Shown here piece by piece: positions 56,162 to 64,000 of a DNA stretch of 64,000 bases. This DNA comes from Ignavibacteriota bacterium (lineage in GTDB: Bacteria; Bacteroidota; Ignavibacteria; Tepidaquicellales; Tepidaquicellaceae): contig JACREY010000005.1 in the NCBI GenBank assembly GCA_016218085.1, forward strand, positions 62,001-126,000, given 5' to 3'. The notes beneath the pieces are model-generated. The model did not search any database and was not told where the DNA came from. It was given only the letters and a program-made list of their open reading frames with translations. Every line of letters starts with the position of its first letter. Within the stretch, counting starts at the first letter, position 1. The position numbers and the translations under genes are program-made.

Positions 56162-57697
56162 TTAATGCTTATGCAAATCTTTCTGCACCATCTTGTCAAT
56201 GAATTTCGTTTTTGCGGTTCCTTTCAGCTTTGCCAGCTTTTTATGCAGGTCGGCATCTTTTTCGGATTTCAGTGATTCTATTGTATAGTCAATTATGCTT
56301 GGCGTGAAAATATTTTCTCTTTCGTATTCCGCTCTCTTCTGATTCAGGATGTCCGCTGATGCAGAGCAGGTTGCGGGCAATGACGGCAGTTCATTGAATA
56401 ATTTCTTGTCTTTGAAAATATTTCCTTTTACGTAAAGTTTTTCCGCAAGCTGATGTGCTTTTTCATTTGTGAGTCCCCATTCGGCGGCAAGAGTCAGTCC
56501 GGCAAGAAGCAGGTGAGCGTTTGCGCTTCCGTCCGGCGTGCGGATTTCGACTGTCTGCATGCTTGCTATATCCAGCGGACTGAAATTAATTCCCGGATTC
56601 ACGAATGATGCAAGGTTTCTTGTTTTTGACCAGCCGAGCGGCACGCGGATCATCGAGCTTCTGTTCGAGTCGCTCCAGCATACCTTTGTCGGGGCTTCCT
56701 GGTCGGGCACGAGCCTTAAGTAAGATGAGCTTACTGTGTTTCCGAAAGCCGTCAGGGTATTTGCATATCTGCAAAGTCCGCCAATTAATCCTCTTGCATG
56801 CTGTGTCAGCACTCCATCTGAATCCACCATTACATTTTTCCCGTCTTTGAACAGTTTCATATGCACGTGCATTCCGTTTCCTGCATCCCCGTCTTCAATT
56901 TTCGGAGCAAACGTAACCAGCATTCCGTGCCTGTAAGCGATGTTTCTGATGAGCCATTTAGCAAGCACTATATTATCTGCTGCTTCATCTATTGGAGTTG
57001 CAAGAAGCTCTATTTCAAGCTGTTCGCCTGTTTTGCCATTGAGTTCTTTATTATCCGATTTAATGTTTTCAATATATCCAACTTCGTTATGCGCATATTT
57101 TACCGCGCCCACAATCTGGGTAAGATTTTTCAGCATTTCTGCCAGCACAGCGCTTGTCTTTGAATACGGTGCCGAAAGGTGATATGCCTTCTGTCTTCCC
57201 GGCAGATACATTTTATTATCATCATTGTAAAAGAGATAAAACTCAAGCTCACCGAGCGCATACATATCCAGTCCTGTATTTTTCTTCAAAAGCCTGTGAG
57301 CGTTTCCGAGTATATTATCGGGTGCGAATGGTGCAGGTTCCCCTGTTGCAGTCAGATAGCGGCAGACAAAATCAAGGCTTCCCGGGTTGAACGGATTTAT
57401 GAAAGCCGATTTGAATACGGGAACAATATATAAATCAGACAATCCCGTATCTATCAATCCCTTGAAAAGCGAGGAACCGTCAGCCCTTTCGCCTTCTGTA
57501 AGAACTATTTCAGCATTTATTCTTGCGGGAATGGGAATTTTAAGTTCTTTCATTTTTCCGTCGAGTGCGGTATAGTGAAACGTGATTCTCTCTATCTGTT
57601 TTTCTTCAATAACTTTCAACAAGTCTTCTCTTGTAAAATCCTCTTTGGGCTTATCGAGCAATATCGATAAAGGATTTGATAATGCGTATTTATTCAT
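56162..57697 (-). CDS. Glutamine synthetase family protein (second type)
   Basis: The 511-aa protein has the GS core: DGSSLFKG region, ELEFYLFYN (GS Glu residues), GNGMHVHMKLFKDGKN (the metal-binding NGMHxHxS segment with Lys for Ser), RLVPDQEAPTKVCWSDSNRSSMIRVP (ATP-binding) and VEIRTPDGSANAHL. It is longer than the adjacent GlnA, and the C-terminal adenylylation segment NLYxLPPEE is not present. It may be a GS of another substrate range, for example acting on polyamines, or a variant glutamine synthetase. It stands next to the repeat island. Confidence 0.88.
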   Translation of the reverse strand: MNKYALSNPLSILLDKPKEDFTREDLLKVIEEKQIERITFHYTALDGKMKELKIPIPARINAEIVLTEGERADGSSLFKGLIDTGLSDLYIVPVFKSAFINPFNPGSLDFVCRYLTATGEPAPFAPDNILGNAHRLLKKNTGLDMYALGELEFYLFYNDDNKMYLPGRQKAYHLSAPYSKTSAVLAEMLKNLTQIVGAVKYAHNEVGYIENIKSDNKELNGKTGEQLEIELLATPIDEAADNIVLAKWLIRNIAYRHGMLVTFAPKIEDGDAGNGMHVHMKLFKDGKNVMVDSDGVLTQHARGLIGGLCRYANTLTAFGNTVSSSYLRLVPDQEAPTKVCWSDSNRSSMIRVPLGWSKTRNLASFVNPGINFSPLDIASMQTVEIRTPDGSANAHLLLAGLTLAAEWGLTNEKAHQLAEKLYVKGNIFKDKKLFNELPSLPATCSASADILNQKRAEYERENIFTPSIIDYTIESLKSEKDADLHKKLAKLKGTAKTKFIDKMVQKDLHKH

Positions 57698-58404: not shown

Positions 58405-58460
58405 TTCTTTTAATTGTCAATGGGGAATTTAAGAGCACGGCACAAAGAGACAAGGAGAAG

Positions 58461-58580
58461 AATTTTCACGAGAGTCCTCCGATTAAGAACATCGGAGAGA
58501 CTCTCCGAGACGGAAAGAAGAATATTCACGAGAGTCCTCCGATTAAGAACATCGGAGAGACTCTCCGAGACAGGGGAAGA
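58461..58580. repeat. Direct duplication of a 60-bp hairpin unit
   Basis: Two copies start at 58461 and 58521. Each has a 14-bp stem, GAGAGTC-CTCCGAT with ATCGGAG-A-GACTCTC, around loop TAAGAAC (hairpins 58470-58505 and 58530-58565). The rest of the unit is purine-rich. Only a few bases differ. Confidence 0.95.
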
Positions 58581-58649
58581 GGAGCACGGAGAAGATCATT
58601 TCACGAAGGAACACGAAGGATGCACGAAGAGAGGTGTTTGAAAATAAAA

Positions 58650-58701: not shown

Positions 58702-60153
58702 TTACACTTCGTAGTAGAGGTGGAATTCATATGGGTGCGGGCGCAGCTGGACTTCTTTTACTTCCTTATTCATTTTATAGTCAATCCAGGTTTTCAGTAA
58801 TTCATCAGTAAATACATTACCCTGTTTCAGGTATTCGTTATCGTGCTCGAGGTTGTGCAGTGCAATTTCAAAGCTTTCCGGAGCCTGTCTGATTTTGCTG
58901 TGCTCTTCAGGGCTGAGGTGGTAGATGTCTTTATCTATCGGATCTCCGGGTTCAATTTTATTTATAATTCCGTCGAGACCTGCCAGAAGCATAGCGGAGA
59001 ATGCCAGATAGGGATTTGCCGTTCCGTCGGGACATCTGAATTCAACTCTTTTTGCTTTCGGGCTGTCTGAATACATAGGAATTCTAATTGCCGCACTGCG
59101 ATTGCTCTTTGAATATACAAGGTTCACGGGCGCTTCATATCCCGGTACGAGCCGTTTATAAGAATTTGTAGTCGGATTTGTAAGGGCAAGAAGGGATGGA
59201 GCGTGTTTAAGGAGACCGCCTATAAAGTATAATCCAATTTCGCTAAGACCTGCGTATTTATCTCCCGCAAAAAGCGGTTTGCCGTCTTTCCATAAGCTAA
59301 TATGAGTATGCATACCGCTTCCGTTATCTCCGAAGATCGGCTTGGGCATAAATGTAGCAGTTTTGCCTGCTTCGCGCGCGGTATTTTTTATTATATATTT
59401 GAACATTTGAAGGTTATCACAGCAATCGAGCATCGGGCAGTATTTGAAATCAATTTCGGCCTGCCCGGCGGTTGCAACTTCGTGATGCTGGAGCTCGACA
59501 TCCATTCCTGCTTCTATCAGGTGCTGAACCATCACGTTTCTAAGGTCATTTGTAGAATCCGAAGGGGGAACGGGGAAGTAACCCTCTTTAATCCTGATTT
59601 TATGTCCGAGGTTAGCTTCATTTTCACTGCCTGTATTCCAGAAACCTTCGCGCGAGTCAATCCTGTACCAGCTCGAGTATTCGTTTATGTTGTATGCAAC
59701 GTGGTCGAGTATAAAAAATTCAGCTTCGGGTCCGTAGTAAGCCGTATCAGCAAGTCCTGTTGAATGCAGGTAATCGATTGCTTTTTTTGCAATCACTCTC
59801 GGGTCGTGGTCATAATATTGCTTTGTCTGGGGGTCCATAATATCGCAGAGCATGGAAAGCGTTTTCGTCTTCATAAACGGGTCAATATGCGCGGTGGAAG
59901 GGTCGGGAATTGCGAGCATATCGGATTCATTAATTGCTTTCCATCCCCTGATGGATGAACCGTCAAAGCCGAAACCTTCATAGAAATGTTCCTGCTTCAG
60001 GTTTGAAACCGGCGCTGAAAAATGCTGCCACTGTCCCGGTAAGTCGGTAAATCTCAGGTCTATCATTTTAATTTCTTTTTCTTTTATCAGCTTGAAAACG
60101 TCGTTGATTTTTTTAAGCTTTTCTTTCTGCTCTTCGATTGGATTTTTTGCCAT
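58702..60153 (-). CDS. glnA: Glutamine synthetase type I
   Basis: GlnA joins glutamate and ammonia. The 483-aa protein has all GSI features: [30 protein letters not shown] (catalytic and metal residues), [26 protein letters not shown] and [14 protein letters not shown]. The segment DIYHLSPEE holds the Tyr of the adenylylation loop, so regulation by adenylylation is possible. It is divergent from the Fnr-like gene; the 199 bp between them carries a palindrome. Confidence 0.97.
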
Positions 60154-60251
60154 TTTAATAAAGTTTTTTAAGTGTTATTTGTTTTTTTAACCGGTTATAA
60201 AAATCAGATTTAAAATACTAAATTTTTTTTGAATATATAGTAATGAAAAAT

Positions 60252-60265
60252 ATGACAATTGTCAT
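60252..60265. promoter_or_regulatory. Palindromic operator candidate between glnA and the Fnr-like gene
   Basis: ATGACAATTGTCAT is a perfect 14-bp palindrome in an otherwise AT-rich 199-bp divergent promoter region. It lies 99 bp from the glnA start and 88 bp from the Fnr-like start. A second, shorter palindrome TAACCGGTTA lies at 60188-60197. The binding protein is unknown. Confidence 0.45.
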
Positions 60266-60352
60266 TTTTTTATGTGCCTGCAGTCATACAGTGTTGCCTC
60301 AAAAATGCTTATTTTTGTATAAAGATATTTTAAAAAATAAAGTTTTGAAAAA

Positions 60353-60796
60353 GTGAACTGTCTAACCTGCAAGAACAGAACTTGTTTTATCCAAAACAAT
60401 TTTTCTGCCAAACAAATTTCAGAAATCAGCAAAATCAAGAAAGTCGTGAAGTTCAAGAAGGGCGATTTGCTTTATAAAAAAGGAAGCCGCCCGAAAAGCG
60501 CCTATATTCTGCTCGACGGCTGTATCGAAATAATAAAGAAAGACAGCCGGGGCGGCAAGAAGGATTTTTATTTTGTCGAGCCGGGCGAGCTGTTCGGGTA
60601 CCGTTCGCTTTTAACTGAAGAGCCTCACAATACCACTGTCAAGATTTACAAGAATTCGAAGATATGCATCTTCGACAAGGAAGATTTTTTCGAGCTTTTT
60701 ATCAGCACAAAAGGGTTCGCAAAAAAATTCATGATATTTCTGTCAGACCAGTTAAAAAGAAGACAGAAAAGACTGGACGAAAAAACAAAAATCTAA
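60353..60796 (+). CDS. Crp/Fnr-like sensor domain protein without HTH
   Basis: The start is GTG. The 147-aa protein has an N-terminal Cys cluster, MNCLTCKNRTCF (Cys 3, 6 and 11), resembling the Fe-S ligands of Fnr, then the cyclic-nucleotide-binding fold: KFKKGDLLYKKGSRPKSAYILLDGCIEI, VEPGELFGYRSLLTEEPHNTTVK and the dimer helix ending DQLKRRQKRLDEKTKI. It stops where the C-terminal winged helix of Crp/Fnr proteins would begin. The next 33 bp to nifJ show no frameshifted HTH. It could be an inactive remnant or a free sensor that acts on another protein. Confidence 0.8.
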   Translation: MNCLTCKNRTCFIQNNFSAKQISEISKIKKVVKFKKGDLLYKKGSRPKSAYILLDGCIEIIKKDSRGGKKDFYFVEPGELFGYRSLLTEEPHNTTVKIYKNSKICIFDKEDFFELFISTKGFAKKFMIFLSDQLKRRQKRLDEKTKI

Positions 60797-60829
60797 ATTT
60801 ATATTTTAATAAAATAACACATTATTATT

Positions 60830-63800
60830 ATGCAAAGAAAAAAAGTTACAATTGACGGAAACGAAGCTGCTGCGTATGTTGCGCACCAGACGAATGAAGT
60901 GATTGCAATATATCCTATTACCCCGTCATCACCGATGGGAGAGCTTTCGGATGCGTGGTCGGCCGTAAATAAAAAGAACATCTGGGGAACGATTCCGGTC
61001 GTAGTTGAAATGCAGAGTGAAGGCGGTGCAGCAGGCGCCGTACACGGCTCGCTGCAGAGCGGTTCACTTACAACAACTTTCACCGCATCACAGGGACTCC
61101 TGCTTATGATTCCCAATATGTATAAAATTGCAGGTGAACTCACGCCTACTGTTTTTCACGTTACCGCACGCTCGCTCTCCGCACAGGCACTTTCGATTTT
61201 CGGAGACCACAGCGACGTAATGTCGACAAGGCAGACGGGTTTTGCGTTAATCTGCTCGAACTCGGTTCAGGAAGTAATGGACTTTGCTCTCATTTCGCAG
61301 AGGGCGACTCTGGAATCAAGAATTCCGTTCCTGCATTTCTTCGACGGATTCAGAACATCGCACGAAGTTATGAAAATTGAACAGCTAAACGTGGAAGATA
61401 TAAGAGCAATGATAGACGACAGTAAAGTAAAAGAACACCGCAAGCGGGCGATGACTCCGGATAATCCGTTTATTAGGGGAACCGCACAGAATCCCGATGT
61501 ATATTTTCAGGGCAGGGAAACGGTAAATAAATTTTACATGGCTTGTCCCGATATGGTACAAAGCGCAATGAATAAATTTGCCGAAATAACAGGAAGACAG
61601 TATCACCTTTTCGATTACTACGGGGCAAAGGATGCAGACAGGCTTATTATAATGATGGGTTCGGGTGCAGAGACAGCAGAGGAGACGGTTGATTATTTGC
61701 TAAGCAAGGGTGAAAAAGTCGGCTTAATAAAGGTGAGACTTTTCAGGCCCTTCTCAGTAAAGGATTTTATCGGAGCAATTCCGAAAACAGTAAAAGAAAT
61801 CGCAGTACTGGACAGAACAAAGGAACCCGGAAGCATTGGCGAGCCGCTTTATCAGGATGTCATCACAGCATTAAACGAAAACATGTCGGAAAGCAAACCG
61901 CTTTTTGCAAAGATGCCGAGAATCATCGGAGGCAGGTACGGATTATCTTCAAAAGAATTTACACCTACAATGGTGAAAGCTGTTTATGATGAGCTGAAAA
62001 AAGACAATCCTAAAAACCATTTCACGATTGGAATTAATGATGATGTTACAAATACGAGTCTTGATTATGATAAGGATTTTGTGATTTCGGAATCAGGACA
62101 GGTGAGCGCACTCTTTTACGGACTCGGTGCAGACGGTACGGTAGGTGCAAACAAGAACTCAATTAAAATCATCGGCGAAGAAACCGAAAATTTTGCACAG
62201 GGATATTTCGTTTACGACTCGAAGAAATCAGGAACATCAACAGTATCGCATTTAAGGTTCGGAAAGAAGCCCATCAAGTCAACTTATCTTGTAACAAAAG
62301 CAGACTTTATCGGATGTCACTTTTTCGGACTTCTGGAAAAATTCGATATACTAAAAAATATCAAAGACGGCGGAACGTTTTTACTTAATACGCCATATTC
62401 AAAAGAAGAAACTCTAACAAAGATTCCGAGAAAAGTTTTAGAGCAGATAACGGCAAAGAAGCTGAACTTCTATGTAATAGACGGATTCACAGTAGCAAAG
62501 AATACAGGAATGGGTACGAGGGTTAACACAATCATGCAGACCTGTTTCTTTGCGATTTCCGGGGTATTACCGAAAGATGAAGCAATTGCAAAGATTAAAG
62601 AATCAATCAAGAAAACATACGGAGCAAAGGGCGATGAAATTGTAAAGATGAATTATAATGCAGTCGATAAAACTCTCGAAAACCTCTTCAAGGTTGAGCT
62701 TTCGGAAATCAAGCCTTCAAAGGTTGAGATTCCTCCGATAGTATCGGATAAATCTCCCGAATACGTGAAGAATACTCTCGCAACAATTATGGAAGGACGC
62801 GGAGATGAGGTGCCTGTAAGCCAGATGCCGGTTGACGGAACATTCCCATCGGCAACTACAATGTGGGAAAAGAGAAATATCGCTCTCGAAGTTCCTGTAT
62901 GGGATTCGGAGTGGTGCATACAGTGCGGCAAGTGCGCACTTATTTGCCCTCACGCATCGATAAGAATAAAAGCATACGATGAAAAATTATTAAAAGACGC
63001 TCCTGCAACATTCAAGCACATGACTGCAAAGGGAAAAGAATTTGAGCCAAACACAGCATATACAATTCAGGTAGCGGTAGAAGACTGCACAGGTTGCGGA
63101 CTTTGCGTTGAAATTTGTCCTGCAAAGAACAAGAAAGAAACGAAGTATAAAGCTCTTAATATGGCAGACCAGATGTCTATTCGCGAAACCGAAAGAGAAA
63201 ATTTTGAATTCTTCTACAATCTTCCCGAATTCGACAGACAGAAAGCAAACGTTACTACAATTAAAGGAAGCCAGTTCCTGCAGCCTCTGTTTGAATTCTC
63301 CGGAGCCTGCACCGGATGCGGCGAAACGCCTTATGTGAAATTAGTTTCACAGCTTTTTGGTGACAGGGCAATAATAGCAAACGCAACAGGTTGTTCCTCG
63401 ATATACGGAGGAAATCTGCCAACAACTCCGTGGTCAAAGAATAAAGACGGAAGAGGTCCGGCGTGGAATAACTCGCTTTTCGAAGACAATGCTGAATTTG
63501 GAATGGGAATGAGGCTTTCTGTTGATAAGCACAATGAATATGCAAGAGAACTTTTAATAAGGTTAAAAGATAAAGTTGGCGGTGAACTTGTTGACGGTAT
63601 TTTAAAAGCAGACCAGAAAGATGAAACAGGAATTTATGAACAAAGAGAAAGAGTAGCAAAACTCAAAGACGCACTTGTTAAAATCAAGACAGATGAATCG
63701 GAAGATTTATTAAGCATAGCGGATTACTTAGTCAAGAAGTCCGTTTGGATAATGGGCGGTGACGGATGGGCTTATGATATCGGATACGGCGGACTTGATC

Positions 63801-64000
63801 ACGTGCTTGCATCGGGACAGAATGTAAATATCCTTGTGCTTGATACGGAAGTATATTCCAACACAGGCGGACAGATGTCAAAATCCACGGGACTTGCGGC
63901 GGTAGCAAAGTTCGCAGCATCGGGCAAGCCGAGACCTAAAAAAGATTTAGCATTGATGGCATTGAATTATGAAAACGTCTATGTAGCAAAAGTAGCAATG
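60830..64000 (+). CDS. nifJ: Pyruvate:ferredoxin oxidoreductase, partial at the window end
   Basis: The ATG at 60830 opens a frame that runs through the end of the window, giving 1057 residues of a protein usually about 1170-1190 aa long. PFOR decarboxylates pyruvate to acetyl-CoA and passes electrons to ferredoxin. Visible are the N-terminal PITPSSPMGELSD, two 4Fe-4S motifs (CIQCGKCALICPHASI and CTGCGLCVEICPAK), and GACTGCGETPYVKL and GDGWAYDIGYGGLDHVLASG of the thiamine-diphosphate-binding part. It follows the Fnr-like gene by 33 bp. Confidence 0.96.
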   Translation, partial: MQRKKVTIDGNEAAAYVAHQTNEVIAIYPITPSSPMGELSDAWSAVNKKNIWGTIPVVVEMQSEGGAAGAVHGSLQSGSLTTTFTASQGLLLMIPNMYKIAGELTPTVFHVTARSLSAQALSIFGDHSDVMSTRQTGFALICSNSVQEVMDFALISQRATLESRIPFLHFFDGFRTSHEVMKIEQLNVEDIRAMIDDSKVKEHRKRAMTPDNPFIRGTAQNPDVYFQGRETVNKFYMACPDMVQSAMNKFAEITGRQYHLFDYYGAKDADRLIIMMGSGAETAEETVDYLLSKGEKVGLIKVRLFRPFSVKDFIGAIPKTVKEIAVLDRTKEPGSIGEPLYQDVITALNENMSESKPLFAKMPRIIGGRYGLSSKEFTPTMVKAVYDELKKDNPKNHFTIGINDDVTNTSLDYDKDFVISESGQVSALFYGLGADGTVGANKNSIKIIGEETENFAQGYFVYDSKKSGTSTVSHLRFGKKPIKSTYLVTKADFIGCHFFGLLEKFDILKNIKDGGTFLLNTPYSKEETLTKIPRKVLEQITAKKLNFYVIDGFTVAKNTGMGTRVNTIMQTCFFAISGVLPKDEAIAKIKESIKKTYGAKGDEIVKMNYNAVDKTLENLFKVELSEIKPSKVEIPPIVSDKSPEYVKNTLATIMEGRGDEVPVSQMPVDGTFPSATTMWEKRNIALEVPVWDSEWCIQCGKCALICPHASIRIKAYDEKLLKDAPATFKHMTAKGKEFEPNTAYTIQVAVEDCTGCGLCVEICPAKNKKETKYKALNMADQMSIRETERENFEFFYNLPEFDRQKANVTTIKGSQFLQPLFEFSGACTGCGETPYVKLVSQLFGDRAIIANATGCSSIYGGNLPTTPWSKNKDGRGPAWNNSLFEDNAEFGMGMRLSVDKHNEYARELLIRLKDKVGGELVDGILKADQKDETGIYEQRERVAKLKDALVKIKTDESEDLLSIADYLVKKSVWIMGGDGWAYDIGYGGLDHVLASGQNVNILVLDTEVYSNTGGQMSKSTGLAAVAKFAASGKPRPKKDLALMALNYENVYVAKVAM

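Follow-up and report, generated by a model that had tools for sequence, protein, structure and literature searches.

A short Fnr-like sensor protein without a helix-turn-helix domain, encoded between glnA and nifJ in Ignavibacteriota

What might an Fnr-type sensor do if it has no domain with which to contact DNA? The question is raised by a small gene in the stretch of 64,000 nucleotides analysed here (the window), which lies between glnA and nifJ and codes for an Fnr-like protein that ends without a helix-turn-helix (HTH) domain. A sequence-only reading of the window had offered two answers: a free sensor acting through protein contacts, or the decay of an ordinary Fnr. We asked how far either answer is consistent with the conservation of the gene, the predicted fold of its product and the other Crp/Fnr proteins of the order.

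A short gene between glnA and nifJ

The short gene occupies positions 60353–60796 on the plus strand, starts with GTG and encodes 147 amino acids, with cysteines at positions 3, 6, 11, 57 and 105; its description draws on the open reading frame, Pfam matches, an alignment and a structural model. Thirty-three base pairs after its stop codon, on the same strand, begins nifJ (60830–64000, running off the end of the window), which encodes pyruvate:ferredoxin oxidoreductase (PFOR) with POR_N, POR, EKR and Fer4 domains. The divergent neighbour is glnA, for glutamine synthetase (58702–60153, minus strand; PF00120/PF03951). The 147-residue frame with C3, C6 and C11 that the sequence-only reading had described is thus present, and the Pfam domains of both neighbours bear out the flanking genes that it had named. 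C105, which corresponds to FNR C122, had gone unmentioned there.

PF00027, the cNMP-binding domain, is the sole Pfam match listed for the short protein at E ≤ 10 (E = 2.2e-18, residues 32–116). A Crp-type C-terminal HTH gave no listed match at the same cutoff, although most matches with E above 0.1 are filtered out of the listing. As the stop codon is only 33 bp from nifJ, no HTH is encoded directly 3′ of the short gene, and an HTH encoded elsewhere close by was ruled out by this gap and by the divergent orientation of glnA. With PF00027 alone and nifJ following so closely, the protein does stop before a DNA-binding domain, as had been read from the letters. The short gene and nifJ form a putative operon.

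Two glutamine-synthetase-like genes lie in the same orientation in this part of the window, at 56162–57697 (assigned by likeness only) and at 58702–60153. The gap between them contains, at 58414–58641, a short repeated unit, read as a repeated peptide; the frame that carries it is probably non-coding.

Among the 44 genomes of the order, three have the short form: our own (G000), a second species of the same genus (G001; protein 74–75% identical) and a member of another genus of the same family (G005; 56–58% identical). All three have the same gene order, with glnA divergent and the short gene followed by nifJ. Because a second species and a second genus code for it in the same gene order, the short gene is not a chance open reading frame. 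All five cysteines are invariant in the three proteins, which end at residues 147, 147 and 149–150; the start codons are GTG, TTG and GTG, and nifJ follows after 33 bp in two of the genomes and after 111 bp in the other. G005 also has, next to its short gene and nifJ, a glutamine-synthetase-like pair similar to that of the window (L157).

Between G000 and G001, the short gene gave dN/dS values of 0.088 (NG86) and 0.27 (YN00), and the other two pairs gave 0.26 and 0.34 (YN00, with high dS); dS is near saturation for this gene and two of the NG86 values were not computable. For nifJ, the G000–G001 values were 0.062 (NG86, N-terminal part) and 0.033 (YN00), while the glnA value with G001 is unreliable, there being an assembly gap inside the G001 glnA frame. 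The short gene is under purifying selection, weaker than that on nifJ, and the short form is probably older than the split of the two genera and has been retained by selection. The comparison with homologues that the sequence-only reading had suggested therefore found the short form kept beside nifJ with its cysteines intact, in 3/44 genomes. Where that reading had set relatives that all carry an HTH, a relaxed dN/dS and lost cysteines against its own proposal, the nearest relatives are HTH-less, none of the cysteines varies and dN/dS stays far below 1.

The short gene has decayed in a neighbouring genus, but decay of the copy in our own genome is not supported. In G006 (L087:1116–1501), a frame between glnA and nifJ matches residues 1–31 only; it retains the C-x2-C-x4-C motif, lacks a start codon where the intact genes have theirs and stops 34 bp 5′ of the nifJ ATG. 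The element found upstream of the intact short genes (TATGAC-N26-GTCATA; see below) was not found at this locus. A PF00027 protein was not found in G006 at E ≤ 0.001 (a MAG that is 98% complete, in 630 contigs). In the same search over nine genomes, four had a match and five, G006 included, had none, which shows that Crp/Fnr proteins are lost independently of the short gene. The nifJ tree groups G006 with G000, G001 and G005, weakly (supports of 0.66 and 0.52); it holds 15 of 21 intended sequences, six having been dropped by a motif filter, the outgroup among them, and G006 is represented by 305 residues. We infer that the common ancestor of genera g1, g5 and g6 probably had the short gene and that g6 lost it. 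At three loci of genus g8 where glnA adjoins nifJ there was no trace of the short gene; of the other two g8 loci, one shows another gene within 1.2 kb and one is cut.

Across the order, nifJ was found in 36 of the 44 genomes (loci read upstream in 30 of the 36, several cut by contig ends). The short gene stands beside it in just three of the 36, and is therefore not a general nifJ partner. A sample of 395 genomes from the phylum (E ≤ 1e-10) yielded, among the matches listed, just one of comparable length besides our own. It is an interrupted longer gene in G280, with a 158-codon frame and a TGA within the matched part. A sample of 391 genomes from the class (E ≤ 1e-16) contained no short frames other than the three already known, and a search of the contig database returned only the two known relatives. 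The N-terminal Cys cluster was absent from the other short CNB frames examined (G029, G040, G060 and G009). These searches measure likeness to this particular short family, and unrelated HTH-less sensors would escape them.

Sensor fold, resident Fnr and upstream element

The AlphaFold2 model of the short protein, built from a 21-row alignment, has a mean pLDDT of 85 and a pTM of 0.76, and its last helix spans residues 120–146. VIA-align placed residues 1–147 on residues 18–164 of A. fischeri holo-FNR (Z 18.5, 146 residues aligned, 2.1 Å), in line with the earlier claim that the sensor fold is complete. The best Foldseek matches of the model were CRP-family regulators, and the CRP-type proteins GlxR and Clr scored Z 19 against 18.5 for FNR. 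This is a tie; therefore the fold by itself does not point to FNR specifically. What the model predicts is the sensor-half fold of FNR/CRP proteins.

One FNR study identifies C20, C23, C29 and C122 as the residues that hold the cluster, and assigns Asp154 and Ile151 to the dimer switch (PMC4214427). In our profile alignment, C3, C6 and C105 fall on the columns of C20, C23 and C122, and C11 falls one residue before C29. Judged by its end points, the superposition has an offset of 17; C3, C6 and C105 then come to lie at 20, 23 and 122, in agreement with the profile alignment. All 21 aligned proteins have C3, C6 and C105; C11 is absent from 17 of the 18 full-length proteins, the sole exception being the protein of locus L134. 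Residue L134 of the short protein aligns with FNR I151 and R137 with D154, both being invariant. The short protein is like FNR of E. coli and A. fischeri in its sensor beta-roll, N-terminal Cys loop, cysteine at the C122 place and dimerisation helix. Unlike FNR it has no HTH, has an arginine at the Asp154 place and has a cysteine loop that is one residue shorter (C-x2-C-x4-C, as against C-x2-C-x5-C).

The Glu and Arg of the phosphate-binding cassette have a role in cyclic-nucleotide binding. In an alignment to PKG these positions correspond to Y83 and N93 of the short protein, invariant in all three genomes, and judging by these residues cyclic-nucleotide binding is unlikely.

In our own genome, the short-protein query returns, apart from itself, a single full-length Crp/Fnr protein; a search with PF00027 finds these two and a third protein of 254 aa. 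The full-length protein is the resident Fnr-like regulator (G000:C3; L034, 1384–2088; 235 aa, PF00027 and HTH PF13545). It shares with the short protein a CxxC motif, a cysteine at the C122 place and PF00027, and differs in having the HTH, in having no cysteine at the C11/C29 place, in its sequence (24% identity) and in lying in a separate clade. Without the C11/C29 cysteine, it may not switch as FNR does. A full-length Fnr is present in all three genomes with the short gene (for G001, an internal ATG was taken as the start, by likeness to the G000 protein).

Origin of the short gene as a recent truncated copy of the resident fnr is unsupported, as the short clade is separate (support 1.0, midpoint-rooted); in the tree it shows no specific grouping with the resident Fnr. 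A 24-residue segment of the dimer helix has a charge of +5 in the short protein as against 0 in Fnr, in all three genomes. This contrast was noticed after the fact; the +5 charge might disfavour homodimers of the short protein.

Upstream of the short gene is the element TATGAC-N26-GTCATA (60251–60288, no strand assigned), which consists of a full ATGAC-N4-GTCAT box and a half box. The full box is the palindrome ATGACAATTGTCAT at 60252–60265, inside the interval that the sequence-only reading had flagged. TATGAC and GTCATA are exactly 26 bp apart upstream of all three short genes. When 161 loci, chosen around Fnr and nifJ genes, were scanned for other spacings, none was found at 20–25 or 27–32 bp; the 26 bp spacing occurred only at the three short loci and at the fnr locus of G014, a related genus, where it begins 136 bp upstream of the ATG of a full-length fnr.

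Genome-wide, the spaced element was not in excess across the 44 genomes, with 15 sites (in 11 genomes) against 21 for a reversed-pattern control. By our own reading, ten of the 15 sites lie outside long genes (L168 being judged by the domain start). In both G010 and G040 a site precedes a gene for a heavy-metal P-type ATPase, which we take to be CcoI-like, and a second site in G014 lies between a gene for a multihaem NapC/NirT-type cytochrome and another gene. The others include sites before genes for a pyridine-nucleotide oxidoreductase (G013) and Hsp20 (G017), and one in a stretch in G039. Judged by eye, five of the seven sites that lie outside long genes and away from the short genes have two ATGAC-N4-GTCAT-like boxes 22 bp apart. 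We regard the spaced element as a putative Fnr-type operator.

A single-box regulon in our own genome was rejected, neither box pattern being enriched over its control: WTGAC-N4-GTCAW gave 8 sites against 18, and ATGAY-N4-RTCAT gave 14 against 13, with 12 of the 14 inside genes. A related sequence, TTGAC-N4-GTCAA, is found in our own genome just 5′ of three genes (L137, L139 and L140, each at 1501–1514). These encode a 4Fe-4S protein, a protein whose gene is beside that of the 254-aa Crp-like protein and is presumably of the RIC/YtfE type, and a membrane protein. TTGAC-N4-GTCAA may be the box of the 254-aa regulator.

A partner for the sensor half

With a conserved sensor half and dimerisation helix and no DNA contact, the short protein most likely has another protein as its target. 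The gene is probably not broken but codes for a functional sensor that works through protein contact. Our best reading, to which we give a little less than an even chance, is a four-Cys Fnr-type sensor without an HTH, encoded in a putative operon with nifJ, that heterodimerises with the resident Fnr.

Under this proposal, the short protein would correspond to about FNR residues 18–164, that is, the cysteine loop, beta-roll and dimerisation helix. C3, C6, C11 and C105 would hold an O2-labile [4Fe-4S] cluster, and a promoter with an Fnr-type operator would drive the gene together with nifJ. With its cluster in place, the protein would pair, via the dimerisation helix, with the resident full-length Fnr. 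Such a heterodimer would have only one HTH and bind DNA poorly; in this way the short protein would damp or tune Fnr under anoxia, a feedback exerted by one of the target operons. In the presence of O2 the cluster would dissolve, and with it the effect on Fnr would end. Id-type proteins, which are dominant-negative partners of eukaryotic bHLH factors, likewise have a dimeriser without a DNA-binding part; the analogy would extend to the logic only, the fold being unrelated.

The resident Fnr appears the most likely partner and PFOR a less likely one. We favour Fnr because it is present wherever the short gene is intact, because G006, which has only a relic, has no PF00027 match, because the upstream element looks Fnr-type and because there is a precedent for heterodimers. 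Fnr1 and Fnr3 of Herbaspirillum seropedicae pair via the dimerisation helix (PMC5934665). That system is like the proposed one in its tuning by heterodimers of Fnr proteins, and unlike it in that both partners are DNA-binding regulators (PMC5934665).

As a local PFOR partner, the short protein would bind the enzyme, or feed or shield its clusters, and alter its activity or stability upon O2. The conserved order and short gaps of the two genes fit this, as do the Fe-S domains of PFOR, which is O2-labile, and the complete sensor domain of the short protein. We nevertheless find it rather doubtful, given that nifJ is so much more widespread in the order than the intact short gene, that three glnA–nifJ loci of g8 have nothing similar in the gap and that G006 retains nifJ with the sensor only as a relic.

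It is unlikely that the short protein is an independent sensor of redox state or of a ligand that acts on some other target (a kinase, GlnA or a cluster-repair factor), or a cluster-less cysteine thiol switch. Divergent glnA is a constant neighbour, cysteines are able to form disulfides, and the same order has standalone HTH-less CNB proteins (L150, L151); however, Y83 and N93 at the cassette positions speak against a cyclic-nucleotide ligand and the four-Cys arrangement matches that of FNR.

We consider it very unlikely that the short protein is a co-activator and not an inhibitor, stabilising Fnr dimers or tuning them where only half of the operator is good. The short gene's own element does combine a full box with a half box, but the short subunit has no HTH.

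Decay, in the form of a truncated fnr pseudogene on its way to being lost, does occur in G006 and is most improbable for the copy in the window, which has an intact frame in three genomes, the same end point, five invariant cysteines, 56–75% identity and, where computable, dN/dS of 0.09–0.34.

HTH-less proteins beside fnr and their meaning

HTH-less PF00027 frames of 137–143 codons lie directly 3′ of fnr in five further genomes of the family, G009, G010, G012, G021 and G022, which represent four genera (L161:1652–2080; L017:2197–2607; L021:816–1229; L022:805–1233; L077:809–1225). The encoded proteins have no N-terminal Cys cluster and stop in the helix region, earlier than the short protein. 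They form a clade of their own (0.998). Its link to the second Crp-like protein found in family f2 is weak (0.68), and the nifJ-linked short protein lies elsewhere in the tree. Further short frames are close to fnr in G065 and G287, and a second Crp-like frame of 213–232 codons follows fnr at eight loci. The fnr loci examined were 40 distinct ones (41 were chosen, L023 being the same as L073), other fnr loci, mostly of family f2, being left out. The three genomes with the nifJ-linked form and the five with the fnr-adjacent form do not overlap, the numbers being very small. From the tree and the domain content, this family has probably seen at least two independent losses of the HTH. Family f2 has another standalone CNB protein of 163–168 codons, with no Cys cluster (L150:1393–1896; L151:961–1449).

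More speculatively, and with considerable doubt, the order may have repeatedly made HTH-less Fnr/Crp 'half-regulators', four-Cys in the nifJ operon and Cys-less after fnr, which would be dominant-negative-like and would reset the Fnr oxygen set-point via O2-dependent heterodimers. Our search, which mostly did not extend to subscription papers, found no title or abstract on an Fnr that lacks the HTH and retains its Cys cluster, and a PFOR-protecting peptide gave no hit in it. In the accessible part of PMC8510549, Ignavibacteria Crp/Fnr homologues are treated as MalR- or Flp-like, with no HTH-less form mentioned there.

If the cluster and the Fnr partner are both true, the short protein would add an extra layer to Fnr oxygen control, in which a sensor subunit without DNA contact comes from an operon that itself has an Fnr-type upstream element. 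It would also provide a small, natural Fnr sensor half for the study of cluster-driven dimerisation without DNA binding. As an HTH-less form is found beside fnr in four sister genera, the idea can be tested in more than one lineage.
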